Origin: Polytrichum commune | Taxonomy: Eukaryota; Streptophyta; Polytrichopsida; Polytrichales; Polytrichaceae | Direction: 5' to 3' | NCBI GenBank assembly: GCA_950295325.1 | Contig: OX485804.1 | Span: 25,730,001-25,794,000, forward strand | DNA length: 64,000 nt | In this document: positions 3,982-62,537 of the stretch, in pieces | Layout: each line of letters starts with the position of its first letter | Position numbering within the stretch: position 1 is the stretch's first letter | Translations under genes and position numbers: made by a program | The notes under the pieces: model-generated | What the model saw: the letters and a program-made list of their open reading frames with translations, nothing else | The model's database searches: none | What the model was told of the DNA's origin: nothing

Positions 3982-4490
3982 TAAGGGCCACTTCACACAT
4001 GAGCCAAGAGCCGCAACCATAAAATCATGAGAGCCCAAATGAAAGTGTCCAAAGGCCGTCTCAAGACACCTCCAAAATCATGTAGTGTGGTCACAGACCC
4101 TCAAGTGTAGTGTAAAGCCATATGTGACCGGACCCTCAACCAAATGCTATTTCACTGGATTTTTATTCATGCGGGTCCTCACACGTGATAACATAGAATA
4201 AATCTATGCTTGTGAGCGTTCATAGTGCCATGGTCTCCCAATTTTGTGTTAGGCCTACATGCAAGAGCTGGTTTTTCGAAAACAACCCAAGTGACCATGA
4301 AACACAATCCATTCAATGCCACGTAGGAATCCATGTGGACTTTACATCCATCTTGCATTCACATACTCAGTTGGTCCCTCAAGCATAGTCTGAAGTGAAC
4401 TTGGACGGGGGCTCCGCGTTTTCCACCAATGAGAGTGCTCTGAAGTGTGATGGTCACGGGCTCTCAGTCTCGTGTGTGAAGTGGCCCTTA
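3982..4490. mobile_element. Tourist-like MITE, GGGCCACTTCACACA family, copy 1
   Basis: The element spans 3985-4487 (503 bp) with TIRs GGGCCACTTCACACA and TGTGTGAAGTGGCCC. The flanks are TAA on the left and TTA on the right, which may be a mutated TTA duplication. It is homologous along its whole length, in inverted orientation, to 62035-62534. The frame at 4206-4388 lies inside it and is not a gene. Confidence 0.85.
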
Positions 4491-5128
4491 GTACTGATTA
4501 GCCATGAATAATTTAGAGGATGTTGGTCACCGAAGCTTAATTAAGGAGCCTAATGAGGGGCGTGATGCCGCTAATCAACCCCGAAAAGCTTTTTCTTTGC
4601 GACTTAGTACAGCCTCCTGTACTATATATGGACAGTTAAGTTTAGGATACTAATGAAGTCTCTCCACCAATGAAGGGCACACTGCGTCTGGAATTATGAT
4701 TGCGGTTTGTACTCAGCATTACAGTTTTTTTTAAAGAGAGTAACCTAATAATACAGTAGTGTTTTTCATTCAAATCATTAATTCTAGATTTCAGTGGGGC
4801 CCTGCAATTGTGTTCAAGTGGCATGGGTTTTAAAAAGGCCTTAGAAACCAGACTACCTTGAACAGAGTGTGTTTTTCTTAATGAAATTGACAAGTTCTGT
4901 ATGAACATTTAAAAAAAATTTAAAATTGTATCTATTTCTGAACGCAAATGAGTTTTGTCATTGCCTTAATGAATCCAACATTTACAATGAGGATACTCGA
5001 GCCCATCTTGAAGGGTTGGGCCAAACCGACCCGTACACTGGTTCCTTGGAGGCGAGGGTTTAGGCACTCTAACAAGGAATGAGTGTATGGGTTGGTTCGC
5101 CCAAATCATCTTGAAGAAGGCTTGTGAT

Positions 5129-5464
5129 AGATCACATCTTCATTCAACTAGGCACCGGTCCTCCCACGTCTCCTTCATTGTTCAGTCTGCTTGTCCACAC
5201 CTGTGTGGGAACTCCTCCTTGGTGGGAACCAATGTGACAACACCCCGTCAAAATTACAAATATTCAAGTTGACATCACTTTCATTATTCCCAAGTTAATC
5301 GATGGACTTCCTTCACATGCCAAAGGAGCTCAATGGCTTAAGTGACTGGGTATTGTCACATTGGTTCCCAACGAGGAGGAGTTCCCATGCAGGTGCGGGC
5401 AAGAAGACCAAGGAGTGAAGGAGGTGTGGGAGGGATAGGGCCCAACTGAATGAAGATGTGATCT
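5129..5464. repeat. Large imperfect inverted repeat (hairpin)
   Basis: The left arm at about 5129-5239 and the right arm at about 5353-5464 are inverted copies that share AGATCACATCTTCATTCA, GGGAACTCCTCCT and GGGAACCAATGTGACAA-like blocks, with a loop of about 113 bp. The short frames in both arms are consequences of the repeat. It is probably a fold-back or MITE relic. Confidence 0.7.
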
Positions 5465-5583
5465 AGCCCGGGGCGTTGCAGAGCCATGCTCAAGAGGTGA
5501 CCAAGCCAAAGACTCAACCAAGGAATATATATATATAAAAGGTCAAAGAAGCATGTGGCCAACATAAAAACACTTGTCAAGTA

Positions 5584-21633: not shown

Positions 21634-24540
21634 TTCTGTGTGCATTGAATACAAACATAATTCAACGAGTTTCGATGTTACGACCATGTTCCATATCCTT
21701 GGATCAACCTCAGACCAAGAGAATCATGAAGACAACTTTCTGAAGCTGTAGTTGAAGCATTATCATTTCCTCAAACCAAGGTTTAGGGTTTGAGGGGTAG
21801 AGTAGGATTTAACATATATGTAATGTAATGGGATTCTTCACAACATTTCATGGGTAGGTCAACTATCCTTGAGGGGTGCACCTTCCATAACATGTATCAA
21901 TATATGTGAGTGCATAGGAAGGGTATTAATTTGAGCTTTTTTGTATTACGCATACATATGCTACACAAAATATAACTTGTAGTTATGTACGTACTTGTAT
22001 GGTAGGTCATTCATTGAGGGTCATTTATTTCGAAGTATGAAGGAGAATGAGGAGTATGATTATGATCAGACATTGATTGATAGTTCCAATGCATAAGAAG
22101 GTCACAAGGAAAATTATAGTTGTTGAAGAAGGCATTTCAAACATGTGCAAGCATGTTGTCATAGAGACGGAATTAATGTAGTTGCAAGTTGAAATTTATT
22201 TACAAGAAGAAGTGAGCGTCGACATGCCTTGGATGTTCTAATTGATGAACCTGAAAATGTTGAAATGCCCTCTCAATCTAATGTAAAGTCCATTGTGGCT
22301 TATGTAGAGGTAGGGGAGTCTAGAATTTTGAAAAGTACACTTGTTAGTTAATCAAATGGCAATTCAACCTTATCTAAATATCAATTAACTTGGATTAAGG
22401 TTGGTATATTATAGATGAAGCCTAAACTCCTTACTATCACGAATCATGATATTATAAAGTCTTGGTTGTGATTGTGGAGCGTGTTTTTTGAATACACCTA
22501 AAGCTATAATTGTCAAAAAACGTGGTCTACCAAAAAAAATTAGCTTTAATCAAGGTTTGGTTTGTTGGGAGGGTTTATAGGATGCATACAAAATTTGGTT
22601 ATATTGGGTGGGAACATAGGGATCCAATTGATTTGATGAACCATCCATCAAACATGGAGATTGGTTTTTTAAAAAGGAACTAAATATAAGTGAACTTATC
22701 ATTTGATGGTAGATTTAGCTAGAAACAATAGTTGCATTAGCTACTATGACGTACATTATATATGTTGGGGGTACATTATTATTCAAAAGTATATTTGTGT
22801 ACTTTTATTAATGTCATTCATACAAATGTAATTTTTTTTACGTACACATATTGCCACTTGTATGTTTATCAATGAAATTGTACGTGTGTTGTTGGATTCT
22901 ACAATAAAACTTGTACAAGGGAGTTTTAGAGTATGTTGCGCATGCATGTGATTCTTGGTTTTCAATGAAAGGTGCACCCCTCATGCAACTATTGGTCATC
23001 CTCACTTTACAATGTTGTTTGACTCGTAGAGTGCGTACCACTACTTTGTTTGTATTTTCTAGAATATATATTATGAAAATATCGGAGTTGGCTAGCACAT
23101 TCAATAAACAAAGAGAAGTTTCATATGAGAAGTTGCTATCTTTTCTTGATTTAGTTTGCATAGAATTTTAGGTATTCTAAGGAAAATTTATGGCCTTCAC
23201 TGGGTGGTTCACCCGCCCTTCACCTCTTCAGTGAAGATCTCAATTTAATTTACACCTGAGTGCAAGCATGGTAAAGTGGACCAAAAAAGTGGTCCGGTAT
23301 ACTAAAACCATAATTTTTTGGTCAATGGCCTAAAAGTAGTAGCAAAATGTTGTTTAAATTAGATTTCTTTTCATGATGACCTTTGTTGTTGTGTTGGATA
23401 CTCAAATGAACCTTATGGTGAGACACCGGTGTCCCAAATAAATTGGAGCCTCATTAATCATTGGTTTTGTGATTGTAAGTGGTAAAAAATAAAAATGAAC
23501 TTTGAACATCAGAGCGAGTACATGACATCGAGATAATCTCAACACCACTTTGATCACCTTCAACTTATCATTTTTGACGTTGACACTGGCTTTAGGGTTC
23601 AACCGGTGTATGATGGGACATTGGGGTTCAAATGTAGAAAATCAAGTTGAGATCTTCAATACTTATCATTAAAAATGTTGCTCAAAAGCACATGGTTGAG
23701 TCTGATTTTGAACGTAGATTTCATGACCTTAATTATTTTGAAGTTGGAATTTTATTTCATATTCCTTGAATTCATGATCATCTTGAGGGCATCGCCATGA
23801 AACTTTTTGGAAAACTGTCAATGTAATGTAATTTATTGTACTTTAAACAAAATTTAGGCAATCACTTGTTTAATATCACCTACTTGCACACCACTTGCAC
23901 CGTCTTCTAAAATATGTAGATTTTTCTTGGATTTCTTTTTTTTCATCATAATTTGCTTGGCTTTGTAGATCAATATGTTTTAAAAATGTCTATGATTTTT
24001 TACTTCACAAATTCAAAGTGAGTGTATAGTTTTGAATTATGAGAGAGGTAGATGGTATTGCTAATGATAGTGGTGCTAGTAGTGATAGTGGTACATCAAA
24101 TATACATGCCAAAAATTTCACCAAAGTATGCTAGACTTCGAATATTGAATTTGTAACAAATCCTTGGGTTCTCCTTGAAGAGAATAACCATTCGAGGATT
24201 GAAAGTCAATAGTTTTCATGAATATAACGATTGTGCTGGGAAAATTGCTCCACATGTTGAGAGTTGTGCTATGAGTTCAACATAGAACCATAAATTGCGT
24301 TCAAAACCCAATACCACATTGTAATCCTTGCAACACTACCATAGAAAACATGATCTTCTAAAAAAGACCTCCAACCAATGCTGAAAAGGTTGGAGGAATG
24401 ATGTGGCAACCACAATGTGGTTTCTAGGGACATTAAGGGTTAATGGATAACTCTAATGGCCATTATCTCATAGAGCAATTTTACAAGTCATATGTATTAT
24501 TGGTTGTACTCGGTCATAGAAAACTAACCTGGTTAGCGTG
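21634..24540. other. Intergenic stretch, possible decayed transposon text
   Basis: About 2.9 kb without a supportable gene. Between 22.25 and 22.75 kb, short frames with many stops alternate in all three plus frames, as in a decayed coding sequence (for instance a relic transposase), but I cannot name a family. The frames at 22838-23171 overlap on both strands and look like chance. Confidence 0.35.
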
Positions 24541-25490
24541 TTCGCGGTCATAGGACATCCCTTGGTTAGGAAGAGCTGCTCTGCTCCTCCTGGCTTTCGC
24601 ACTCGCATTGCAAATTTCTTTGCGAAACCTCCGAATAATTGCTGTACCACTTGCAGCAACAACATCATCAATCCTCTGGACTGATACCCTGTACGTTCTC
24701 ACGGACCGACCAATGCTTTTTTGGTTGCGTATGGTGGCGAATTGGGCACTGTTTGGGAGCTTCCTTGAAGGCGTGGGATTTGCAGGTGGGAGAGTAGCAA
24801 AAAGAGTGAGATCAGGTATCCGCGTGGAGGGGAATTGAAGCTTGAAGCTCGGGTAAACATATGAATTACGTCAGTGTGAATTTCAGGTCAGCTGTGGAAA
24901 TTTGCTGTGAAATTGCAGTTTATGATGTCTTGCGTTTGATTAGGGTTAAGTGCTGGGCTTCGGACCTTCACTCTTGTAGCATTCTTGTTCTTGTCCAATG
25001 TAAAGTGAGAAAAAAAGAAAAAAGAAAAACACTCTGACGCGTCTTTGGAGCTCTCGGTGACCTTCCTGCGATTACAAGTTGTTTCGGATTGTAGATTGTT
25101 CAGAAAGTTGGTGCTCCGGTTCTGTTTTCGTTGCCGTTGCTGTTTTCTCGCTTTAGGTGTCGCAGGTTCGATTCTTTGATTTTTTGATGTTAGTGTTCTA
25201 GTTGTCGAGTGATTGAGAGTTTTGTGTACTTTCTAAGTTTTAGGGTTTAGGTGGTGGTGATGGTGATGGTGATATGATGGTGGGCATTGGTTGGGAAGTG
25301 GATGGCGAGGATTTTATGATTGTGATAGGGATTTGTAAGGTTTATATGGATTCTAATCTTTGTGGCTTTGCAATTGCAGACTTTAATGCCATCAATTACA
25401 TGAATGTCGTCAAGGATTTTTGTGCACTTTAGCTGCCCATCGTCAAGGGTTTTGTGATCATTGAGCCGATGTGGGTGCTATCATCCATTC
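24540..25490 (+). repeat. Duplicated promoter/leader module, copy A (upstream of Abraxas)
   Basis: This segment is homologous to about 29930-30610. Matching landmarks in order are ATTGCAAATTTCTTYGC, the AGTCCTCTGG block, ACCAATG...GCTTTTT, TTGTAGRTTG, a GTTGCYG-rich stretch, TTTTAGGGTTTA-GTGGTGG (telo-box), TTTGCAATTGCAG (intron acceptor) and ATGAATGTCGTCAAG. Copy A has extra sequence (about 24.82-25.08 kb) that copy B lacks. It covers the probable promoter, 5' leader and leader intron of the Abraxas gene. On the minus strand its left part retains degenerate coding text (FAKKFAM motif). Confidence 0.75.
25400..25432 (+). CDS. uORF in the Abraxas leader (10 aa)
   Basis: ATGAATGTCGTCAAG opens a 10-codon frame (MNVVKDFCAL) about 270 bp before the Abraxas start. 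The same first five codons open a 20-codon frame at the matching place before DEX1 (30516). Translation is not shown; conservation of the start context is what is seen. Confidence 0.35.
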   Translation: MNVVKDFCAL

Positions 25491-25699
25491 GCAAAGAGCT
25501 CCTTTCTCCTTCAGTGTGTGTAATCTGCAGGGCGTGAGTTAGGTCAACGCAGAAGTGCAGATTGTATTTCATAAATTATGCAGAATTTGGGAACACGGGT
25601 TTGCTTTCTATCTATATGAGAGCACCCCTTGCCTTCCTGGCGGTAGTGGAGATTGACGTCCTTATCAATTGCAATTGGAGAAGTAACAATCTCTAGGGC

Positions 25700-26814
25700 A
25701 TGGCACCTGCAAGACATCCAACAGTGGATGGTGACACACCAGTCGAACGAGTTGCAATTTCAGGTGCAACACTCGCAGCCTTATTGCAAGCAGTCAATTC
25801 CTCAAGAGGAGATTTCGATGGTGTTCTGTTTGGCCATGTTGACCATCAAGTTACTTCAACCTTTGTCGACGAAGATATGTCTCCTCAAGCCTCTCAAGAA
25901 TCCACTGCAATTGTTACAGGCCATTACTGTTCTGGAAGAGTCAATAGCTTTTATGATGCAACCGGCTGGGTGGATGCAGAAAAACTCGCTGATATGATGT
26001 CTGAACGAAAATCCCGAGGTGGTGATCCTCCCATTGGATGGTATGTTGGTCGAAGGGGATCCACTATGCGACCTTCAATGAGAGAATCAACTGTTACAAC
26101 TTACTTGAGAACAACACCACTCTATGTGCCTGTTGATACTATTGATTGTTTCGGCGACATACGGCATCGGAAACGGAAAGGCGCTGGTGAAGGTGTAGAA
26201 GATAGTCTTGGTAAAACTGCCCAATCTCCAGATAGAGGAGGAATTGCTGGTTCCATGAGTGAAAGCTCTGGATCTGGTAAGAGGCCTGCCAATGAGGGTG
26301 TTTTTCATACTCCTGGATTGGACAGGAAGTTTGTAGGAATACATTCTTCATCCCCCTGCATTTTCTTTCTTTTTACAGAATCAATTGACTCGAATTCAAT
26401 ACATACACATGAATACCGTGCTTTTCAATTCCACATGAGGTCTCCAGGGGCTGGATGTTTTGAGCCTCGCTCTGTCAGCATCATAAACACGGCCTCGTTT
26501 CGAGGATTATACAACACATTTGTGCCTTCATCGCCATTCCCGCGGTTTCTTAGGTCCTCATACATGGAAGGTGAGAGTTCTGATGAGTTCTTCACGAGTT
26601 CTGAGACCACCGATGTACACATGGAGGGCCAACAAGTAGAAGAACAGACATTATTAAAGATGTACTCCCACGACTTCTCGACAGATAGATTAAAGGGCAT
26701 GATCAGAATGGAAGGGCAAGAAGGCGAGCTTGAAGCTCTATACAAAACGATGTTACGGAAACTGGAACAGCTGGCGAAATGTGTTTGTGAGGGCAACATT
26801 GTGATTGCTGAGCA

Positions 26815-26908
<94 letters not shown>

Positions 26909-27123
26909 TCCCTCAATGTGAGTTGAATGAATTAGCTAAATGTTGAATCAGAACTGTTAAGATGCTAAACCCTGAAGGGTATGTAAGAATATTGACACAA
27001 CATCAAGCACTGGCCACTTGCATTTTGAGATTTAGCACTGATTCAGTTTATATTTCATTGCAGGAACTTGCAGTTGCCAAGCTAAGAATGGAACTGCAAT
27101 CTGTTGGGAAACAACGACACTAG
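25700..27123 (+). CDS. Abraxas / ABRO1-type MPN-like scaffold protein (FAM175)
   Basis: Exon 1 (25700-26815) and exon 2 (27064-27123) join at CAG|GTGTCT...TTGCAG|GAA to 391 residues. The N-terminal part (VAISGATLAALLQAVNSS, GDFDGVLFGH, GWYVGRRGS, and in the middle CIFFLFTESI) matches the MPN-minus domain of FAM175/Abraxas proteins. These lack the JAMM zinc ligands and pair with the deubiquitinase BRCC36, in BRCA1-A (nuclear) or BRISC complexes acting on K63-linked ubiquitin. About residues 310-391 are charged and heptad-like, fitting the C-terminal coiled coil. No C-terminal SPxF BRCA1-binding motif is present, so it is nearer to ABRO1 in that respect. A CT microsatellite begins 2 bp inside the intron. 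The leader is shared with DEX1. Confidence 0.85.
26818..26913. repeat. (TC)n microsatellite at the Abraxas 5' splice site
   Basis: About 45 TC/CT dinucleotides with few interruptions start immediately after the GT of the intron donor at 26816. Read in frame from exon 1 they encode alternating Ser-Leu until a stop at 26924-26926. The opposite-strand Arg-Glu frame (26425-26916) is an artefact of the repeat. Confidence 0.95.
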
Positions 27124-29387
27124 TCACCTCCAGAACATTTCAGTGCACTCTCGACCTGCTGTTTCATAAGGGCATGTAACCACATAATTTTGGTCAGCAG
27201 AGGTCATAGTGGTCATTCTTGAGCCCCCCTTTCAGCTTTGGGCAGCTATTCATGTTGGTAGCATTGTAATTTTTGTGGTATTAATGCAGCACATCTAATG
27301 CTGCGGATTTGTTCTTGCAACACCTGATGGCAAGATCGTTCTATAACCCTCCGCAAAAGATAGAATTTGTGTGTAGTCATCAGGTTTTTGGTCTGGGCTG
27401 AAAGATTGTTGCGCCAAAAAATTGTATTATATCAAACTATCTTCAAAGCTCCACAAACTCGAAACACCCATCTTATGTTTGTGGTTTCTGCTTAGTTGGG
27501 AAAGTACTCGTGTCATGTGTCCAATCAACCCGAGGAAGCTTTACTGGAAAGAGGGTTGTTTTTGCCAGTAGAGGAGAATGTAGAAATAGCCTCTTGCCTG
27601 GAGTTAGGGTTTGTCTTCATTAAGAGATTTGAACAAAATGCTGATGTCTTGTCATCACCACCTTCTAGCTCTAGGTAGTGTATTTTTAGGGGGTTCATGG
27701 CTGAATCTCCAGGCTTCCATTTTGTGAAACTTGTAAGATATGTAGGCCTAAGGAGACTTTAAGCTCCACACCCACTTCTCCTAGGATATCAAACACGCAA
27801 TTAGTACTAGATGAATAGCAAAATTAAATCAAGGCCATAGCCATTTTCCTAATATTTTTTGAAGCTTATATGAATATCCTCTTCATTATCAAAGTGATGA
27901 TGCTTTTTCTTCTGGAATGATCATACATGTCCCCGCATTATGTTGACCCTTTTTCACAAGTTGGAAGAGGTGGAAAGTTTGTCCAAAATGAATTAATTGC
28001 TGTTCACTAAAATGAAGTTGTGCCATATAGATTCTTGATGACATCAACGTTCTGTTTCTGCATTGTGATTGGAAATGCAACCTAAGAAATCCACAACGGT
28101 TACCTAGTGTCAAGGCTGCACTCATATTTCACAATCACAATCGTTGAACGCTTGATAGCTCATGTATCTATTGTTCTGTTGATTATGGGAATGATTCTCT
28201 TGAGTAGAAGAGTCGCTTCACGCATGAACCAAGGTCAGGGATCACAATGCACTCAGGGTGTGTGTGTTGGGGCATGCTCTTGCACATGCATTCATAAAAT
28301 GTGTAAGGTATATGGATTTTAAATGGTTGCTTTTTCCAATTAGCCCACTTCTAGGATATGAAACGCACAATTAGTTATCATATTCAAATTGAGGTTGTAG
28401 CCACTTTCCTCGTGGTTTTTGGAGCTTGTATGGATGTTTAATTCGTTATTAAAGTGAAGATTCTTGTGCTCATTAAATGGTCATATTAGTCACCTCAATT
28501 GTGTTGAATATTGAGTATAGAATGGTTTTCACATTTTGAGCATGCAACTTATCTCTTTTAAACATGTTTCTTTTTTGTTTTTGTTCTTGGAGCCACACCA
28601 AACCACATACCACACAAATATAGATGTCCTCGTAAGAATAATCGAATAAGGGTTGTGTACCACAATAGGAGTAGCTTTGTCAAAAGTTTTCTTATTTCTA
28701 AAATCCAAGGGATAAGACCTTTCTATGTGTAAATATGGATGCTATGGATGCTCCCACCTCACATCTACCTTGAATGAATAAGTCTCAAACAATGGACTCT
28801 ACCTTAGGGACATTCTTCAAGAGGCCTATCTTGTTGTCTCCTTGTACTTCTTCAAGTCAATAATTATGGGACATGTGTTGGGAAAGCTTACATCAATAAT
28901 CGTGTTAAGAATAGATGGACAACCTAGATTTGCTTAGCAATTCGAAACCTAGGTTTGAGATGGCATCTAGATCATGTGATGTGAACCCATAGGCATGGAA
29001 TTAGGTTAACAACCAAAAGCCTTACAATTTTATGTGTGACCAATTATGAAATTGAAAGCTAAAAATAACAACAAAGGTAACCTTAAGTACCTATGTATGA
29101 TGGTCTGAGCCCCATAAACATACCTCTTTGACCTTTTAGGGTTGATGAAAATAGTATCAATAGGCTATATGGTCTAGTTTGCCAACAATGATTGGGGAGG
29201 TTTTTGGACATAATCGGTCAAAATTCTAGTGTTTCCAAGTCCAACCGGGTTACATATTGTGATCTTTCAGTTTTCTTTATTAATTTGAAATAAATCCCAT
29301 AGATTCCTCTAACATGATTGGTAATTTTCTTAAATTCTTGAACTTCAACGGGTTATTTCTCAAACCCAACCAATTCATCTGTAACTA
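27124..29387. other. Intergenic stretch with two half-copies of fold-back family R1
   Basis: No gene is supported. Segments at about 27750-28000 and 28300-28720 match the left arm of the 680-1447 element (for example the CCCACTTCT..GGATAT and ACACGCAATTAGTA blocks), both in the same orientation and without their opposite arms. The short frames here follow the repeats. Confidence 0.5.
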
Positions 29388-29765
29388 CACTAAATATCAT
29401 ATTTAGTGTCACCAATTCTAATTATCTTGCTCAATACTAATTGTAAACCACACTATAGTGTCACCAAAACTAAATGTTTACCCAACATTATGTGTCATTC
29501 CTTATAAATGTTTTTGGGGATTATAGATTTACAGTGTTGCAATTATTGTCACTTACCAAGTGATTTTTCATCCAAACTTCAATCATCCTTGACAATATTA
29601 CATCACAAGTTGTTGACAAGAGAAGGTATAGTAGGGTTTTGGCCAATGGATGAACTCATCCATCATCCATGACAATTGTTTTTTGCTTATTCATAAGAAG
29701 TGTCATCCAAAAAGTTACCATAGTGACATCAAAATACCATATGATACTAAATATCATATTTAGTG
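29388..29765. mobile_element. MITE with palindromic CACTA-like ends, copy 1
   Basis: The element is about 378 bp and homologous over its length to 61450-61824 and, more weakly, 62771-63144. Both ends carry the same palindrome, with arms CACTAAATAT and ATATTTAGTG around a single C (one end base altered at the right). Each terminus can therefore form its own hairpin as well as pair with the other. It lies directly upstream of the DEX1 promoter module. No transposase, no clear target duplication. Confidence 0.8.
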
Positions 29766-29929
29766 TAGATGTTGGGTTGGTTCGGTTCTCCCCATTCATT
29801 TTCCACCATGAAAAGCATAGGATGCACTAAAACCTTTAGAAATTAAATGATTTATATGATTACTGTAAGACCCGGCACCACGGTCACAGGCACACCACCG
29901 TCGGTGCAAAACCGCGAATGGTCAGAGTG

Positions 29930-30610
29930 TGCACGGTCATATAATCCTTTGACTGATCCCTCTGTTACTCGGAAGAAGCGGTATTGCTCCTGCTTTTTTT
30001 TTGCCTTGGCCTTTGGCCTACATTGCAAATTTCTTCGCAAAACCTGCGATTGCATCCATATTAGCAGCGGCACCAGTCCTCTGGAATTCCTGTACTTTCT
30101 CGCGCACCAATGGATGCTTTTTACGTCGAAAACTGTTGAGCAGTCGGCCCCTTGCAAGAGCTTTTGATGGCACAGAAGTTCCAATTGCCTTTGTAGGTTG
30201 TCGATGAAGTAGTTAGCTCCGCTTTTGTTGTTGTTGTTGTTGCTGCTGCTGCCTTCTTGCTTTAGTTGTCCCTATTCTGACGATTCCCTGTTGTGAGTGT
30301 TGTAGTGTCTGTGGAGATTTTTGTAAGTGATTAGGACTTTTTATGTAGGTTTAAGATTTTAGGGTTTATGTGGTGGAATTGCTTGGCATGACGATGAGCA
30401 TTGGTCAGGATGTGGATGGTGAGGTTTATGTAAATTTTAACAGGGAGTTGTGAGGTGTACGGAGTTTGATGTTTGTGGCTATTTGCAATTGCAGAGTTGA
30501 ATGTGATCAATTTGTATGAATGTCGTCAAGTGTGTGAGGATTTTCGTGGATATCAGCTGCCTGCTAAGGGTGTTGTGAATCTTTGAGTGGATGCGGGTGC
30601 CTATGCGAGG
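29930..30610 (+). repeat. Duplicated promoter/leader module, copy B (upstream of DEX1)
   Basis: This is the partner of 24540-25490. It carries the same ordered landmarks: reverse-strand relic coding text with FAKKFAM followed by a TAG stop, a telo-box-like TTTTAGGGTTTA, a leader intron acceptor TTTGCAATTGCAG at 30482-30494, and the ATGAATGTCGTCAAG uORF start. It ends a few bases before the DEX1 start codon, so it supplies the promoter and leader of that gene. Confidence 0.75.
30516..30578 (+). CDS. uORF in the DEX1 leader (20 aa)
   Basis: It opens with ATGAATGTCGTCAAG (MNVVK), as in the uORF before Abraxas, then diverges and runs 20 codons to TGA, 36 bp before the DEX1 ATG at 30615. A role in tuning translation is inference only. 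Confidence 0.35.
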   Translation: MNVVKCVRIFVDISCLLRVL

Positions 30611-30614
30611 AGCC

Positions 30615-33600
30615 ATGGCATCCGCCTTATGGTGGTGTCTCGTGGCGATTCTGGTGTTGGGAGTAGCTGGAGTGGACCGGCGGCCTGTTGCGCACGATGA
30701 TAATATGAAGGACCAAGTTGAGGGCAACAAATTTCTGAGTAATGAAGCATCAGAGGATAACCAAGCATTTCCTGCTTTGTAAGCTACTCATCTCCCTCCT
30801 AAATTTTTTTACACTTTCTTGTGGGATGCATGTCCTCAAGGGCGTTACAAATTCAATCATGGAGCTTGTGAGGGCACCTTTCGCCTTTACATTGGACTGG
30901 CATAGTACCACCATTTCTTACATTCTATATGAAGCATAGTTTCATACTGAGAAAATGAAGGGTATTATGTGTTGGGGCTATGTTCTACTTGTTTCCAGTA
31001 GATTGAGATTGTCTTGTATTTTGGAATCAAGAAGAATTTGCTAAAGGGCACCTAGTTATGCAAGAACTACTACTTTTAATACTCCCACTTCTCTCTCACT
31101 TTCCCAAAATCTTGCCAATGATCTTCTTTATCCATCTACAATCAGAAGACATAGAAATTACAGGTGGAAAGTCTTGGCAAAGGTATTCTCTAAGGACATA
31201 GTCCTAGGGAGGCCTCTTTTGTGTTAACTTCACATGCACCTCCCTGGGCAGTCTTGTCAACAGTTCTTGATGGTGTGTGATGGATAAATTATTGATTGTC
31301 AGGACCATTGTCCTCTGGAACTGCTTCCTTTGACATGTTACCAATATATCACCACCATCAACTAAAGGGTCTTGTGAGAAACTTCATAGACAACAAAGGA
31401 ATTATCATTCATGCTGCCTTTATTAATTTTGAAGCTTGAACTTTATTCTGGATACAGCCATGGACCGCACAAGAGTGTATGAGTCAAATTGGTGCATTGA
31501 TTATGTTATTAGTAACCTTCATGTAGGTCCCTAAGTTTGTATTGTTAGCCTTGTTGGCAGTTGGGCTGTGAATGCTCCACTCACTGAGGCACTTACCTTC
31601 AACTTTAAATATACAGCATAGCCTGGGGTGCAGGTGACCAGAAAACTAATCTCATTTACCGATCCATCATCTTTATGCCTGAAGACTGCGCAACTGGTCC
31701 ATAGTCATTGAAGCAAATGGTTCTGCTTAAACTATGGGGTGACTTTGAAATAGGGCGTTAAAATTACAAAATGCATAAGAGAGACAACCACATGATGGAA
31801 TATGGTCATGTTCAAGCCATCAGGACACTGAAGGTAATGGGGCACTAGTTATTATTGGATTCCCAGATAAGGGTTTCTTACAAGAACCTCCTATATTGCA
31901 TGTGATAAGGTCCCATGCAATTGGCTGCTGTATGCATTTTCCCTTCTATGGGGCTTGAGTTATGGGGTCCTATGTACACCACTGGGAATGGTTACGATGG
32001 TTCAAATTTATAAGCTGACTAAGGAGGTGGACTGGATGTTCAGGAATGAGGAAGCCCTAGCCAACACTCAGTGTCCACAGCAGGTCGAATTGCGGTGGCA
32101 GACGGAGGTCAGCTCTAGCATCTATGCTACTCCTCTCATCACTGACATAAACACGTACACTCCCTAACCTTTCCCCTTTGCAGACCTTTCCGAGGCTATC
32201 ACTTTCTATGTGTACTGATACAAAAGCAGCTGAAGCTGATGCTACAGGGTGTAGTGCCGATGAGTTGAAGGTCTTGCCATACTCCTTAGAACCACAAAAG
32301 TCTAAGTTCTTTAGTGTTGCAATGAAGTGGGTGGATCGGGACATTCATCTCAGGTCTCTGGCCCTGTGTAATTTGTTTGTGCTTGAGGGATATGCTTTCA
32401 TGCTCCATTTCTATTCATGTGAGCTGCCTGCTTAGATGCAGTTTTGATGAATCTGTCCTTTGGACATCTCAAGATGCCAGTGAGTTATGCCTTTAGAGTG
32501 TTTGGGACATGCCCATGTATTTTTAGCTTACAGTTTGTGGGGATCGACATAAATGGAAAATGATATTGCTTTCTTTGTAATCTACATGCTGTTTAGAGTC
32601 TACATGCTATTCATGATTTCAGTGATTCAAGTTGCTATGAATCATGCCGCTGTTCTGAACAAGTCATGTCTTGGTTTAGAGAGGTTCACACTCTAAATGG
32701 TCCTGCTTGTGACACTCTTTCTCCCTTCCTTGATCCTGTGCACAGTGATGGCAAATTGGAGATAGTGGTCCCTTCGTTTGTACATTATCTGGAAGTTCTT
32801 GAAGGTTCAGATGGAGAGAAACTGGCAGGTATTGTTTTCAGCCTTTTGGGTTGTGTACCTAATACAGGTCTAGATGTTATGCAAAGGCAGTCCACTTCCA
32901 CAGTGGTGGGTTTTTGAGCAATGTTTTCTTCCAGATAGATAAGGGGATTCATTTGGTCAGGTGTTTCTTAGACCTACATTGGGAACAACTTTAATTATTG
33001 CTTAAATCACATTGTTACCCTGACGCTGGCTAAGTATGAAGCATCATAGTTGGTTTTTCTAGTTCATCAAGACATGTTTATCACCTTTTTTCCTTATCTG
33101 AACTTTGTTGTTTTTTGGGTGGAGGAAGAGAAACATATACATGTACATCAGTCTTTAGATCGTGTCAGCTGTAATTCTTAAAGGGCTTTTCTCACAAGGA
33201 GATATTTTGTATGACACTCACAGGTTGGCCAGCATATCACCAATCTACAGTTCACTCAAGTGCACTTATGTACGATATTGATAAGGATGGCATTCGTGAA
33301 GTTGCCCTGGCTACTTTCAATGGCGAGGTTTTGTTTTTCCGGTACTTTCAGCATCCAACTTTGCTGTAAAATATAGTCTGTAAACTGGATCTGACTCTGA
33401 AGTCAAGGGTTCTCTTATTCACAAATGTCGTCATATTTGTCTACCAGGATCATATTGAGTACAACAGGAGTATTCAAGTTCTCTTTATTCCAAACATGAT
33501 TTGCAAGATCTAAGCCTGCACTCTGCAGGGTTGAGGATTTGCAGTTGTCTGAATTTGGATGCTTTGCAGGGCTTCTGGATTCCTTATGTCAGAGAAGCTG

Positions 33601-36600
33601 ATTGTTCCAAGGAGGAAAGTAAAGAAAGACTGGTATGAGGGTCTTAGCCCTGATCATATAGATCGCACTCAGAATGATGTTCATGACGAAGCTCTCAACA
33701 TTGCCAGTCCTAACATCACCAGTAACAGTACTTGGGGTTTAGTTCATGGTATGTGAATGATTTCCCTTTTTCACCTTTTGTGTTGAGTATTGAGTGCTTT
33801 CATTTGTTCAAAGTTTCAATCTTGAATGATCTGCTGCACTGTGGGTATTTTGTACATTTCAAGATGCAGAGATAAATGATGTGTTTCTCCATGTCACACC
33901 TCCATATAGTATGAATTGTGGGGTATCATTCTCTTCATATACTGTAATTGGGTGTGGTCATTGGATATCGCTGTAATGAAATCTGGCTCCATGTCTGAAT
34001 GAATGTGTATGAATGCATATACCTACATTGGGTATCGATTTCTTTGCATCTATTTACAAGCAGGTCTGAAAAAGTCTTGATAGCCTTGATCCTCTGCACA
34101 TGGTCCATTGATTTCAAGAGATTATTTTACTAGACAAATTTGAAATTGTTGTTTGGGATTGGGACCTTGTACAGAGAATGTTGTTAAGACAAAAGAAGTC
34201 ATTGACCTTGGAGAGGGATTGTGCTGCAGGTGCTGGTGGCACTCTCAGCACGAGTAATGAAAATTTGCAAGCTCAAAATGGGACCAATGTCACTGACACC
34301 ACATCACATGGGGCTGAAAAGTCTGCTCTCAATGATACCAGCACCAATGTAACTTCACAGAATGCAACAAGACGCCGATTACTAGAGGAAGCAGTAGGAC
34401 AGGAAGCAACTGTTGAGAATGAGGACAACAACGTATTAGAGGATGAAGCAGATGCCTCATTTGATGTATTTAGAAGTGCTGAAGAACTTGCAGAAGATCA
34501 CGGGGATCAAGGACTGTCTGACCATTATGCTTATGACTATGATGACTATGTGGATGAGTCCATGTGGGCGGATGACTCCTGGGCTGAAGCACAACATGTG
34601 AAAGAGACTGATTATATTGATGTGGATGCCCATATTCTATGTACTCCTGTAAGCAAAGCTCAATGTCAACTGCATTTAAGTTTATGGTTCTTTTTCTTTT
34701 ACTCTGCAACTCATCACATTGATTAGAGCTTACCCACTGTTTTTAAGATGTTAGGATTTTGGTCACTTCTAAGCTTATAGTCACAATGGTTGAAGTCCTC
34801 AATCTAGTCTGGCTTTGCATGTTAGGAATGTCTCATGAGAGAGAGGATTTTCCTTGTGCAGGTTATAGCTGACATCGATAGAGATGGAGTGGATGAACTG
34901 ATTGTGGCAGTGTCTTACTTCTTCGATCGTGAGTAAGCTCCCACTTCCTTCTTTCCTAACAAGCAGAAAAACCAACAGGTAGTTTCTTGTTTCCTGCATT
35001 GCCTGCATCGCCTGCAGACATCCAGCTGTTGACATTCCAGTCACTTCTTGTTGCAGGTATTATGATATGCCAGAACACGCGAAAGAGCTCCCTGAAGGTC
35101 TTGATATTAGTAAGTATGTGGGTGGCTCAATTGTCGTTTTCAACTTGGACACCAAGCAGGTGAAATGGACCCAAGAGCTAGACCTCAGTACAGACTCGGT
35201 CTCTTTCCGTGCCTATATTTACTCTTCTCCAACAGTTGTTGATGTTGATGGTGATGGATTCCTGGAAGTGATCGTGGGAACATCATTTGGATTTCTGTAT
35301 GTTCTCCACCATAATGGTATTTGCTCATAACCTTGACCTCCTGAATGCTAGTTGCTAAATTGAAATGTGGTTATTGTTTCACCAACTTATTGCTAACTTA
35401 TTGATGTTGTAAGTAATCTGCAGCTCAATGCTTTATTCTACCAAGTTGAACATATTTTATATACTCTACACGATTGTTGACACTGTATTATCTGAACAGG
35501 TACTTTGAAATTACCATTTCCACGTCTGATGGGCGAGATCCAAGGACAAGTTGTCGCCGGTGACATTAATGATGATGGGAAGATTGAGATAGTAAGTGCA
35601 GACGTTCGTGGTAACGTGGCAGCTTGGACTGGCGATGGCAAGGAGCTTTGGACTGTTCATTTGAAGAGCCTTGTTGCCCAGGTGATAACAATTTCTATAA
35701 CAAATAAATTCAGCAGCTACACTAAATAGTCCTGTTAGTGTGGGTGGCAATGATTAGCATGGACCACACTAATTTTCTACTCAAGGTGGAAATGACGTGG
35801 GTCTTCCCATAAGTCTTCAGAAGACTTTTGACCAACACATTGAATATTAGTTATAGGACAGAAGTAGCATAAAATGAAGTAGTCACCCATACTAATTTTC
35901 TTATTAATGTGGCCCATGCTAATTTTTGCTAGAAATTTGGCGTGGGTTGGAAATTAATGTGGCCCATATTAATTCTCATTATGAGAATTAGCGTGGGTGC
36001 TAGAAAATTACTGTGAGTCACAGTAATAGGACTATCTAGTTGTAGTTGTGATTCAATCTGTGTCTTAGTTCCTGTATGACTGTTTGGAAAGTAGACTGCG
36101 TCTGTCTTTCTAATTGGCATGACTTGAGAAAGTCTTCTGAGTTTATGTTTTCGGTTTAGCTGTTGAGTGTGCTTGGACCTGGTTGGGTGCCAGCTGATTG
36201 CTTTGTTTATGTGTCACCTGCATGATTAGGTGTGTGGGCCTTATGTAACCCCTCCTCTTAATTGGATGCCTATTCTTGAGTGGCACATGGGAATGCTGTA
36301 GTTACAAATGGACACCTAAAAAGACACAAGTCACGATGAGAGTCAACTGGTTACTTAAAATCTGTTAATTATTCATGGTTCAATAGTTTACACAATTGGG
36401 AGGGCGTATGTGATCTCTTAATTAGAAAGATAATCTTCACTTTAACCTCTTAGAACTTTTGCATCTCGGCACCAGAACCTATCAACTTTGCCAAAATTTT
36501 GCTTTTCTTGATTTATAACTGTGCTAGGATTGTGTTTGTGCAGGGGCCTACGATTGGAGATGTAAATGGAGATGGTTACACAGATGTGGTGGTCCCAACA

Positions 36601-39326
36601 GCTTCAGGAAAAATCTTTGTGCTGAAGGGAGCGGACGGTTCATATGTGGGTCCATATCCTTTTAAAACACACGGGCGGGTCATGGCACCTGTTCTCTTGG
36701 TGGATCTTAGCAAGCGGGATGCAGATCGGAAAGGCCTTACACTTGCTGTGACATCTTTTGATGGCTACTTCTACCTCATTGATGGACCGACTGGTTGTGC
36801 TGATGCAATTGATATTGGAGAAACCTCGTAAGATCTCCTTGCATTTCTTTGATGATGTTGATTAGGGTAGGTGCATCTGTTACAGTTTGTGACCTATTTG
36901 GAACACCTAAAATCAAGGGTATAATGGACATGAAGCACATGCTACATGGTTTCAAATGAAGAACCAATAAAAAGGAACCAAGTGGAGGCACATCATGACC
37001 TTTGTGAACACATGGCTAGTCCACCTCGTAGCAGACCGTGACAGAGACAAGTGACTACAGCTTCCAACATAGGTAGGGTTGTATGTAAGGGATTATAAGC
37101 AAGTGCGGCATGTGACTTGTGGTCCCTATTCTCACAGGCTTGAGGGTTTAAGCAAGGCCATAATGGGTTGTGTAGAAGCACTTTATCCCATGTAAAAGGT
37201 CTGACTTGACCTAGATGGGTAGCAGAAACTAATGTCTGTACATAACAGCAGGTCCGTAAGAACTTGAGATATGATTGAAATATTCTGAGTGGCATGGTCT
37301 CTGAACCATTTTCAAAGGTTATTCCAATGAGGTAATTGACACATAAATCAGATTACTCTAAAAACCCACACTCACTGAAGTGCTGGGAATAGGTGCGACT
37401 GCCATACAGGAGGCTTTCTGGTATGCCCGTGGTCTTTGGAATGGAGCACATTGTTGTCCACATCTGTTTTTTTGGTTGGCCTTGTCTTAGATCCTTGTTC
37501 ATGCAGGTATAGCATGGTATTAGCAGACAATGTGGATGGAGGTGATGACCTGGACTTGATTGTTACAACCATGAATGGAAATGTTTATTGCTTCCAAACA
37601 CCTGCTCCACATCATCCTCTTAAGGTACTAGCTTCTCACTGAGTGTCCTCCGGCTTTCAAGTATGTAGTGAGGGCATGAGCACACTGTTAACTCTCCTAC
37701 TTTACTAGCTTCATGTTTGGAGGGGGCTTAAGTGTTACTGTTAATGTTCTCCTGTGCATCTATACAGTGGTTCTACATTGCTCATGTCATCTTCAAAAAC
37801 GTTATGTTCTCTTGTAGATGACTCCAACCCTGAGATCAATTACTGAAACATCTTCTAATTATTGTGTCCAAAGAAGAGGTTTCTGACAGCTTGGGGAAAA
37901 TGCCAAGGAAGAGTTTAATAGCATTTCTCACTGTTAATATGTACCTCGCTTGTGGATGTTGTGTTAGCTGTTGCCGTCACCTGTTGGAATAGAAGCTTAT
38001 TTGTGCTTGTAATCTACTCATTTTCAGCAAGATTGTGTTATAGTACATGATCTGTATTACAACATTTTGTGCTGTGCAGGCATGGCCATCTCAATTGCAA
38101 GGTAGGAATGTGATTGCAAGCAAGCATAATCGAGAAGGAATATTCATTCGTCCCAATTCTCGAGTTTTTCGGGATGAGGCGGGAAGCAACTTCTGGGTGC
38201 AGTTTCAGATCGTTGATCAGCATCGCCCTACTGCAGGCCCGCCAGGGCCCTACAATGTTACGGTATGTGGCTGGTGATTGGGCTCTGGTTATGGTCAATT
38301 CCAATGTTGGACTGGTATATAGGTGAATGCATGGTATCATACACAATATCAATAATGCTGCCAAAAAACCTACCCAATCAATATCAAAACTGGTAATGCC
38401 AGTCAAATATCAGTATCAAATATTGATACTTGGAGGATATCACAAGATGAGAGAATCTTTGTATACCCGACTTAAAATTTGGGTCAATAAAATCCTAACA
38501 GCATGTTGATACTAGGTTAATGTCCTAGGTATGTAGGTTCTGGCATGGTATGTAGACCTGAGACCTGATTGGTATCAAAACCAAGATATGGTTGAGGATT
38601 TGTGCCACTCAAGTAAGGGGGTCCAATAAAAATCTACCCCTTGGTAGGTTTATGGTTGATCAATCCCAATTAACTTTTACTGAACTAATTTGAGGTCTCT
38701 GATGCTAATTACGGGGTCGAATATACTAAGGAAGAAGTCTCCGAGCTATAAGGGGTTCCCAATGTTTTCACCTTCAGCTTACTTGAGTGACACAAATCGT
38801 TGGCCCAAAATTCTCCTCAAATTCCGTACTCTAGCAGGTGTCAAAAGAGGTGACACCACTCCAGCAGTGGTCAATTCTCTGGCAAGTCTGTTCCCTGTTG
38901 GCCATAAGACCCTAAACCCTCAACCCTAAACCCTACTACAGCAAATTTTTGTTTTGGCACATGAAGGTGGTTGATGAATCGTGTTGTTTGCTTGCTTGCT
39001 TGCTCAAACTGCAGGTGAGTCTTCTAGTTCCCGGCAACTACCAAGGACCTAAGCGTATCTCACAAACAATTCCGTACACAAAGCCTGGTGTGTACCAGGT
39101 GAAGGTGCCGTGTGTCTCGGTGCGAACAACAGGGAGTGTTCTGGTGGAGATGGTGGACAAGAATGGCCTCTACTTTTCAGATGAATTTTCACTCACATTT
39201 CACATGCGGTACTACCGCTTGCTGAAGTGGCTCATTTGCCTTCCCTTTGTGGGTATGGTGACCCTTCTAATATTCGTGCACCCCCCGGAAGGCACCCCGC
39301 TTCCATCATTTTCCCATCAATTGTAG
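30615..39326 (+). CDS. DEX1: DEX1 homologue (DEFECTIVE IN EXINE FORMATION 1), FG-GAP protein
   Basis: Thirteen exons: 30615-30778, 32044-32154, 32746-32828, 33224-33341, 33570-33748, 34230-34648, 34862-34932, 35057-35316, 35500-35681, 36544-36827, 37507-37624, 38080-38262, 39015-39326. All have GT-AG introns and together give 827 residues in frame (Arabidopsis DEX1 is slightly longer). There is a signal peptide at 1-20 and a single membrane span at about 793-812 with a short tail. Between them, repeated Ca-binding-like loops [50 protein letters not shown] and [10 protein letters not shown] form an integrin-alpha/FG-GAP propeller. Exon 6 encodes an acidic, Asn-glycosylation-rich insert (NGTNVTD, RRRLLEE). 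In Arabidopsis DEX1 is a membrane/ER protein needed for primexine and exine patterning. Upstream in-frame ATGs at 30591 and 30603 would add 8 or 4 residues. Intron 9 contains a MITE. Confidence 0.95.
35720..36042. mobile_element. MITE with CACTA-like ends, copy 2, inside DEX1 intron 9
   Basis: The element is about 323 bp. It begins CACTAAATAGTCCTGTTAGTG and ends with the inverted form (AATAGGACTATCTAGTTG). It is homologous throughout to 5584-5915, including the palindromic ATTCTCATTATGAGAAT near its right end. It starts 38 bp after the exon 9 donor and enlarges the intron to 862 bp without touching splice sites. Confidence 0.75.
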
Positions 39327-60300: not shown

Positions 60301-61449
60301 TTTATGTATTCATCATTGGAGATGATCTCATTGGCACTTCTTGCATTTGTTGAACAAGCGCCGATGCACAAAAGGCATCCCCAAATCTCATATCCCAATG
60401 ATAATTTTTGAGCAATCAAGACAACCAACCCACTTGGTTGCTTCTCATGAAGAGTCTCGGTACTCGCCCCAACCTCCTTATATACAAAAAAAGTATTGTT
60501 TGTCTCTAGCGGCAACACGCTTTGAACCGTCAACCTAGATTGGGGTAACTTGCGTGTCATGCCTCGGGTCTCACGATTCAAGCAACCCAAGAGCATGCCC
60601 ATATCACGAGGTTTACGTACTCTAAGAAACATTTTCAAGACGACTTGACCTAATATTAGACAACTCCTTGACTACGTTCTGTGGGATCATGTATTACATG
60701 AGCATAATTTTTCATTAAATTTGGGATTTTCATGTGTATGGGGAGTACCCAGGTTGTCTACTATGAACGTTTTGACAAGCAACTATGAATCATCAAAGTT
60801 TTTCAACGGCAACCTGGGAAAGAGATCGTCGTGTAGTTGCTTAGTAATGTTATGGATCACATCCATTGTGTCAAAATTTACCCATCATGAAGATAAGCCT
60901 GGATCACTATGGCAAGAGGAGGTTGTTGCATAAGTGTGTACTCCTTATCCATCCATCTAAAGAGTTGGGTCCCCCTGATTTGTGGTGAGTTCATTTCAAT
61001 TGGATTCCACAAGACTAGTTTTTAAAACACTCTACAATGAGACGAGGGTGCACAATCCTTTTACATCCAAGGTGTTGTTACACTACATGAATGACGGTTC
61101 CACATCACTACATTCATTATCCCAATTAGTGTGTGTTACTATTCGGGGCTAACAATGTTGGTACTATTTATTGAGAATGCGATATGTTATTAAGCGAAGT
61201 CACGTATGTTCTATAATGTCCGGACAACCTATTGAACTTAAAAAACCTTATTGCATTACGTAACTCTGGATACTTACAAGCACTAATTGAGATAATCATT
61301 GTAGTTTTCTTCCACTGTACAGGTTTTATGATCTACCTATTACAATAGTAGAATTCCAACTCGTATTCATAGGATTCAAACCCATCTAGTGAAAGAGAAC
61401 TAGAGATAAGGAACCATGATTCCCGTAATCTAACTAGATAAACAAACTA
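57330..61449. other. Intergenic stretch, 4.1 kb, no gene seen
   Basis: It includes text at 57.38-57.70 kb resembling the 5584-5915 MITE family only faintly, a C-run (about 57917-57930) and a low-complexity AAGATAAACTA/AGTAA-rich block (58569-58705). The frames at 57828-58373 and 60294-60933 have no recognisable product. Confidence 0.4.
58569..58705. repeat. Degenerate purine-rich low-complexity repeat
   Basis: Variants of AAGATAAACTAAG, AGAATAAG and GAGTAA follow one another for about 135 bp with no regular period. Confidence 0.6.
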
Positions 61450-61824
61450 CACTAAATATTAAATCTAGTGTCACCAATTCTCATTGCCTTGCTCAATGCT
61501 AATTACAACCGATGTGTAGTGTCATCAACATCAAATGTTAAACAAACATTATTTGTCATCCCTTGTAAAATTTTTGGGGGATTATATGTTTATTGTGTTG
61601 CAATTAGTGTCACGTACCAAGTGATTTTTCATCTAGATTCCATCCATCCATCCATCACAATATCTCCTCACAAGTTGCTGACAAGAGAGGTGAGGGTTTG
61701 GCCAATGGATGAACTCATCCATCATCCATGACAATAGTTGTTCACTTACTCATAAGAAGCGTCATCCAAAGAGTTACCATAGTGACATAAAGTACCATGT
61801 GACACTAACATATCATATTTAGCG
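61450..61824. mobile_element. MITE with palindromic CACTA-like ends, copy 2
   Basis: The element is about 375 bp and homologous in the same orientation to 29388-29765 throughout, for example GGCCAATGGATGAACTCATC and AGTTACCATAGTGACAT. The terminal palindromes are partly eroded (CACTAAATATTAAATCTAGTG at the left). Confidence 0.8.
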
Positions 61825-62031
61825 TACTTTGGTATTCATGAACTTCACATCGGAATGGGGGCATTGGGGGCTATAGTTGGGACTTTAAATCGAATTGGGG
61901 AATTGGGACTAACAGTTGACCGACACACACAAAAGCTCAAAAAGTACCCAAAAAAATATCTTTATATGCTCTAAGGAGTCCTACTAAGCTTATCACCCTC
62001 AAGTTGTTAGGATTTTGGCCTTTCTTGTGAC

Positions 62032-62537
62032 TTAGGGCCACTTCACACACGCGACTGAGAGCCCGTGACCATTACACTTCAAGCGCTCTCATTGGTGGAA
62101 ATCATGGGGCCGGTTGGAGTTTGCTTGAGGCTACGTTTGAGGGACCAACGGAGTATGTGAATGCAAGATGGATGTAAAGTCTACATGGATTCTTACATGG
62201 CATCGAATGGATCATGTTTCATGGTCACTTGGACTATTCTCAAAAACCACCTCTTGGAGGTAGGCCTCACAGAAAACCAGGAGACCATGGCACTCCAAAC
62301 GCTCACAACCGTTGATATATTCGATTTTATCGTGTGTGAGGACCTGCATGAATAGAAATTCATTGAAATAGCATTTGGTTGAGGGCCCGGTCACATATGA
62401 GTTCACAATACACTTTGAGGGTCCGTGACCACACTACATGATTTTGGAGGTGTCTTGGGACAACCTTTGGACACTTTCTTTTGGGCTCTCACAATTTCAT
62501 GGTCACGGCTCTTGGCTTGTGTGAGAAGTGGCCCTTA
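62032..62537. mobile_element. Tourist-like MITE, GGGCCACTTCACACA family, copy 2
   Basis: The element spans 62035-62534 (500 bp). It has TIRs GGGCCACTTCACACA and TGTGAGAAGTGGCCC and a perfect TTA duplication at 62032-62034 and 62535-62537. It is inverted relative to copy 1 at 3985-4487 and homologous over its full length. The frames inside it are not genes. Confidence 0.85.

Follow-up and report, generated by a model that had tools for sequence, protein, structure and literature searches.

A duplicated 5' segment in front of an Abraxas-like gene and of DEX1 in Polytrichum commune, most likely of local origin

Introduction

Two neighbouring genes of Polytrichum commune that encode unrelated proteins are preceded by similar upstream sequence. 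This raises the question of how one 5' segment came to stand in front of both, what it comprises, and whether it has any bearing on their regulation. The region under study, referred to as the window, is a stretch of 64,000 nucleotides (C2:25730001-25794000) of a 408-Mb assembly with 64 contigs. Copy A denotes the segment 5' of the Abraxas-like gene, and copy B the segment 5' of DEX1. A previous sequence-only reading of the window had proposed that a promoter together with a leader intron was duplicated and captured by a second gene.

Results

The two genes

Both gene names given by that reading are borne out by protein matches. ORF 25697-26926 contains the Abraxas MPN family (Pfam, E 4.2e-14) and its protein matches an Abraxas 2 chain (PDB, E 2.7e-06). 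The DEX1 beta-sandwich is found in ORF 38916-39326 (Pfam, E 5.4e-17), and exons within 32045-33696 reveal 57-74% identity to an approximate DEX1 probe. Thus, the coding regions, an MPN family on the one side and a beta-sandwich on the other, are indeed unrelated. The gene models are as follows.

25700..27123, + strand: Abraxas-like gene, ATG at 25700
25700-26276, 26379-26815 and 27064-27123, + strand: Abraxas coding exons, read by eye
30591..30778, + strand: first coding exon of DEX1, with donor GTAAGC at 30779, by eye
32045..39323, + strand: later DEX1 exons with introns in between, from Pfam, probe matches and assembly search

The first Abraxas intron, as read by eye, is 102 bp long, in frame, and may be retained; a long CT repeat at about 26816-26914 opens the other putative intron. 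The first coding exon of DEX1, which we take to resemble the N-terminus of the protein, carries three in-frame ATGs at 30591, 30603, and 30615. Neither a structured RNA at the Rfam gathering threshold nor a tRNA (ARAGORN) was found in the window.

Extent of the shared sequence

The homology between the two upstream regions falls into two blocks, and copy A contains two stretches of its own.

25089..25478, + strand: core of copy A, leader-like, 5' of Abraxas (blastn, local alignment)
30191..30600, + strand: core of copy B, leader-like, reaching the start codons of DEX1 (blastn, local alignment)
24526..24772, + strand: copy A, upstream block of patchy and weaker homology (local alignment)
29910..30171, + strand: copy B, upstream block of patchy and weaker homology (local alignment)
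24773..25088, + strand: A-only stretch of 316 bp without a counterpart in B (alignment)
25479..25699, + strand: A-only spacer of 221 bp between shared core and Abraxas ATG (alignment)
25469..25537, + strand: upstream ORF of 22 codons in A, its ATG aligned with the DEX1 ATG at 30591

The core pair, 25089-25478 and 30191-30600, is the sole strong blastn match between the upstream regions (137 bits, E 4e-35). Its alignment of 429 columns contains 371 ungapped columns, 294 of which are identical. The score of this pairwise alignment, 151, is far above chance, given that 200 dinucleotide shuffles averaged 17.6 and did not exceed 26.3. The homology is same-strand and collinear, the copies lie 5.1 kb apart, each 5' of a gene, and the homologous segments thus precede the unrelated coding regions of Abraxas and DEX1.

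The alignment of the upstream block spans 285 columns, of which 224 are ungapped and 167 identical, and scores 67. The maximum was 22.0 in 1000 shuffles, and 396 comparisons with other tiles of the window, on both strands, gave at most 20.0. Further upstream no homology was detected: 24200-24525 against 29768-29909 scored 10.8, compared to a shuffle mean of 11.6 (300 shuffles), and a permissive alignment of 24036-24597 with 29487-29996 scored 32.6, its end being the shared upstream block.

Between the two blocks, the 316 bp of A face only 19 bp in B, to which they show no match, such a short target giving little power. No further copy of this stretch was identified among the assembly matches listed (40 of 134 first-look candidates scored). 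Of the 0.7-0.95 kb of homology proposed previously, core and upstream block in the same order and orientation are retained; in A they are not continuous but separated by the 316-bp gap, and the length is therefore overstated. Since these 316 bp are unmatched in B, the two genes differ in the proximal sequence directly 5' of their common leader, and a shared proximal promoter is doubtful.

At the 3' side, the core homology ends at 30600 and takes in the first in-frame DEX1 ATG (30591), with which the A-copy ATG at 25469 is aligned. Remains of DEX1 exon 1 beyond the 3' end of the A core were looked for by comparing 25479-25699 with 30601-30790; the score was at chance level, being reached by 217 of 500 shuffles.

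Divergence and constraint

The core copies are about 79% identical and differ by many small gaps. K2P amounts to 0.246 in the core and 0.31 in the upstream block, and the difference in identity between them is not significant (p 0.19). In the core, no conserved islands above an even background were found by permuting columns (p 0.20 for the variance and 0.34 for the longest run), and the codon-phase pattern of mismatch counts gave no clear coding signal. Evenly spread matches at a K2P of about 0.25, without conserved islands, are what an old duplication under little constraint would leave; constraint is not demonstrable. As core and upstream block are alike in identity and no island shows excess conservation, use of copy A by Abraxas is not demonstrated by divergence.

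Features of the putative leader

Both cores are rich in G+T on the gene strand. GC skew is 0.50 and 0.51, respectively, a size reached by 32 and 29 of 2623 overlapping 300-bp tiles, and the G+T content is reached by 14-15 of them, where the two 300-bp test tiles were positioned after the composition had been seen. The bias fits a leader transcribed rightward; the skew of A may be mere inheritance. Copy A shows high skew at 24700-24900 as well, within the A-only stretch, such that the core is not uniquely marked there. In B, the skew climbs near the core start, which fits a transcription start near 30190, where transcription of B may begin.

Two motifs of the sequence-only reading, a telo-box and the acceptor of a leader intron, map to both cores.

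25238..25249, + strand: 12-base exact match with the telo-box word, copy A (alignment)
30357..30368, + strand: 12-base exact match with the telo-box word, copy B (alignment)
25367..25379, + strand: acceptor-like TTTGCAATTGCAG, copy A (motif search)
30482..30494, + strand: acceptor-like TTTGCAATTGCAG, copy B (motif search)

The telo-box word TTAGGGTTT is present in both copies as proposed, yet it is not specific to them, occurring at five other places in the window (seven in all). This word is enriched in the window, with 7 occurrences compared to 0.92 expected, a count reached in 0 of 100 shuffles.

A search of the window for TTTGCAATTGCAG with up to one mismatch allowed gave two hits, one per copy, each of them an exact match. 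By eye, a YTRAY-like branch-point candidate lies 5' of it in both copies. Using an approximate donor matrix, no strong conserved donor was found at a suitable distance in both copies. The top conserved pair, 25340/30455, scores 2.1 and 1.1 and implies an intron of only 40 bp, while the better-placed pair 25189/30293 scores 1.3 and -0.1, below the 95% quantile of the window (2.3, same matrix). The A core contains 12 ATGs, which would burden translation if the majority were not spliced out with an intron; the putative 25189/30293 intron would remove 7 of the 12, with another lying across the donor, and in B 8 of 12. A leader intron common to both copies, as proposed earlier, is plausible from the conserved acceptor-like motif and branch-point candidate, but no more than that.

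Copy number and repeats

Searched against the assembly, the A core retrieved itself and B only (2 of 2 candidates scored). B together with the upstream block retrieved the two copies and, in addition, short matches of 49 and 37 bp (4 of 4 scored), which, judged by query position, fall in the GTT/GCT-rich stretch of B. Taking these counts as lower bounds, the copies are confined to this locus, close together and in the same orientation, and the core does not look like a dispersed repeat.

Other sequences in the window are repetitive. A dispersed repeat with at least 44 other matches listed lies at about 24170-24445, directly 5' of copy A; the query 24100-25088 gave 44 listed non-self matches, all in query positions 71-346, with 40 of 134 first-look candidates scored. 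The shared blocks and the 316-bp stretch are reached by no dispersed-repeat match among those listed. Directly 5' of copy B, a repeat at 29383-29767 has a relative at 61445-61826 (about 385 bp, 83% identical); its ACTAAATATCATATTTAGT-like ends appear MITE-like by eye. An inverted pair, 3982-4492 and 62030-62537, aligns over 512 columns at 85% identity, and 5128-5465 is foldback-like, with a 71% match to its own reverse complement.

For a base rate, direct pairs of at least 300 bp and at most 10 kb apart were collected from 264 kb, comprising the window and 200 kb added without gene annotation. Five such pairs in four places were obtained, and of these only the Abraxas/DEX1 pair had no additional copies in the 264 kb. 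The other four pairs sit in repeats or local arrays, the places p1 and p2 having relatives elsewhere in the 264 kb. The place p3 (L030 8514-9800) is a head-to-tail local array of units of some 620 bp, for which no relatives were found elsewhere in the 264 kb.

Discussion

Origin of the shared segment

We favor, with a probability of roughly two in three, the view that a 5' segment, most likely that of DEX1, was duplicated locally and at the DNA level to a position before Abraxas, and that the copies then drifted evenly. A copy at the DNA level is indicated since the homology extends above the presumed transcription start. Under this reading, a segment of several hundred bases, comprising upstream DNA, the transcribed leader, and the first start codon, would have been copied locally and set about 5 kb away, in the same orientation, before the Abraxas-like gene. 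The copies would then have diverged evenly to their present identity with many small gaps, and the 316-bp difference would have arisen by gain in A or loss from B. Abraxas transcripts would start in or above copy A, which the gene likely uses as leader. Of the promoter and leader intron that were proposed to have been duplicated and captured, we retain the duplication of a 5' segment, present at two places in the same orientation, with a plausible intron and a doubtful promoter.

That the DEX1 5' end was the source is weakly suggested by the homology reaching the DEX1 start codons and stopping 221 bp short of the Abraxas ATG. Abraxas and the one DEX1 exon tested each gave a single place in the assembly (E up to 0.01), and a paralogue therefore cannot give the direction of copying; as the 316 bp of A may also reflect a loss from B, the direction is unsettled. 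The same local duplication may have run the opposite way, from the Abraxas 5' end, or copy A may be an unused fossil with Abraxas transcription starting within 25479-25699. The 316 bp absent from B, the 221 A-only bases preceding the Abraxas ATG, the 12 ATGs in the A core, and the even, apparently unconstrained divergence are all compatible with these variants. They are at odds with a homology that stops at the DEX1 start codons and with the strong G+T strand bias that the A core shares with B, perhaps by mere inheritance, and we consider them possible, if rather unlikely.

An origin other than local duplication finds little room in the data. Repeats do border both copies (about 24170-24445 and 29383-29767), as might be seen if a dispersed element, i.e., a MITE, a solo LTR or similar, had landed before both genes. 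Such an element should not be limited to the pair and two short GTT/GCT-rich matches, which is all that the assembly yielded (2 of 2 and 4 of 4 candidates scored, lower bounds); with no further copies found, we disfavor this explanation as very improbable. Still harder to credit is that both segments are remnants of a third, minus-strand gene. The frame 30018-30197 is open in B and two short stretches of it agree in A, yet it has no Pfam match and an unconvincing best PDB match (E 0.074), is found once in the assembly, and is broken in A. Its mismatches number 14 at third, 21 at second, and 10 at first codon positions, such that third positions are not favored, and the idea was rejected. A retroposed Abraxas gene is likewise disfavored by the two canonical introns that we read by eye in its coding part.

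Regulation and relation to known systems

Co-regulation of Abraxas and DEX1, as far as the sequence of the locus goes, is unsupported. We hold it to be improbable that an old duplicated leader, with intron and upstream ORFs, is still used by both genes and would couple a ubiquitin-complex scaffold and a cell-wall gene via transcription or shared-leader translation.

No publication naming Abraxas and DEX1 together was found within the library searched, nor an account of this locus at the level of titles and abstract openings. In kind, the event is leader or promoter shuffling by partial local duplication, which is already described in other organisms, rice included. The title of the rice rpl27 paper reportedly includes the term 'promoter shuffling'.

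According to PMC2631504, a transposable element supplied rice rpl6-1 with its 5'-UTR, and chromosomal recombinations are given as the route by which rpl27 gained its promoter. Both rpl27 and rpl6 are transferred mitochondrial genes whose upstream or 5'-UTR sequences came from other parts of the nuclear genome, and here, too, a gene would have received 5' sequence from another place. Unlike them, Abraxas and DEX1 are ordinary genes lying side by side, the copy is a nearby one of the same orientation, and no transposable element was seen to have carried it; for the rice genes transcripts were available, whereas the present locus is read from genomic sequence. In Drosophila yakuba, tandem duplications shuffle regulatory elements and create chimeric structures (PMC5460883), a regulatory shuffling similar to ours. 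Those cases come from a population sample with RNA-seq, while ours is a diverged pair (K2P 0.25) read from the genome only.

By itself, the duplication follows a known route for gaining new leaders. The locus represents a clean and locally confined example of two unrelated genes preceded by one ancestral 5' segment and, with transcripts and outgroup genomes, would allow a direct test of whether control of expression or translation travels with a copied leader.
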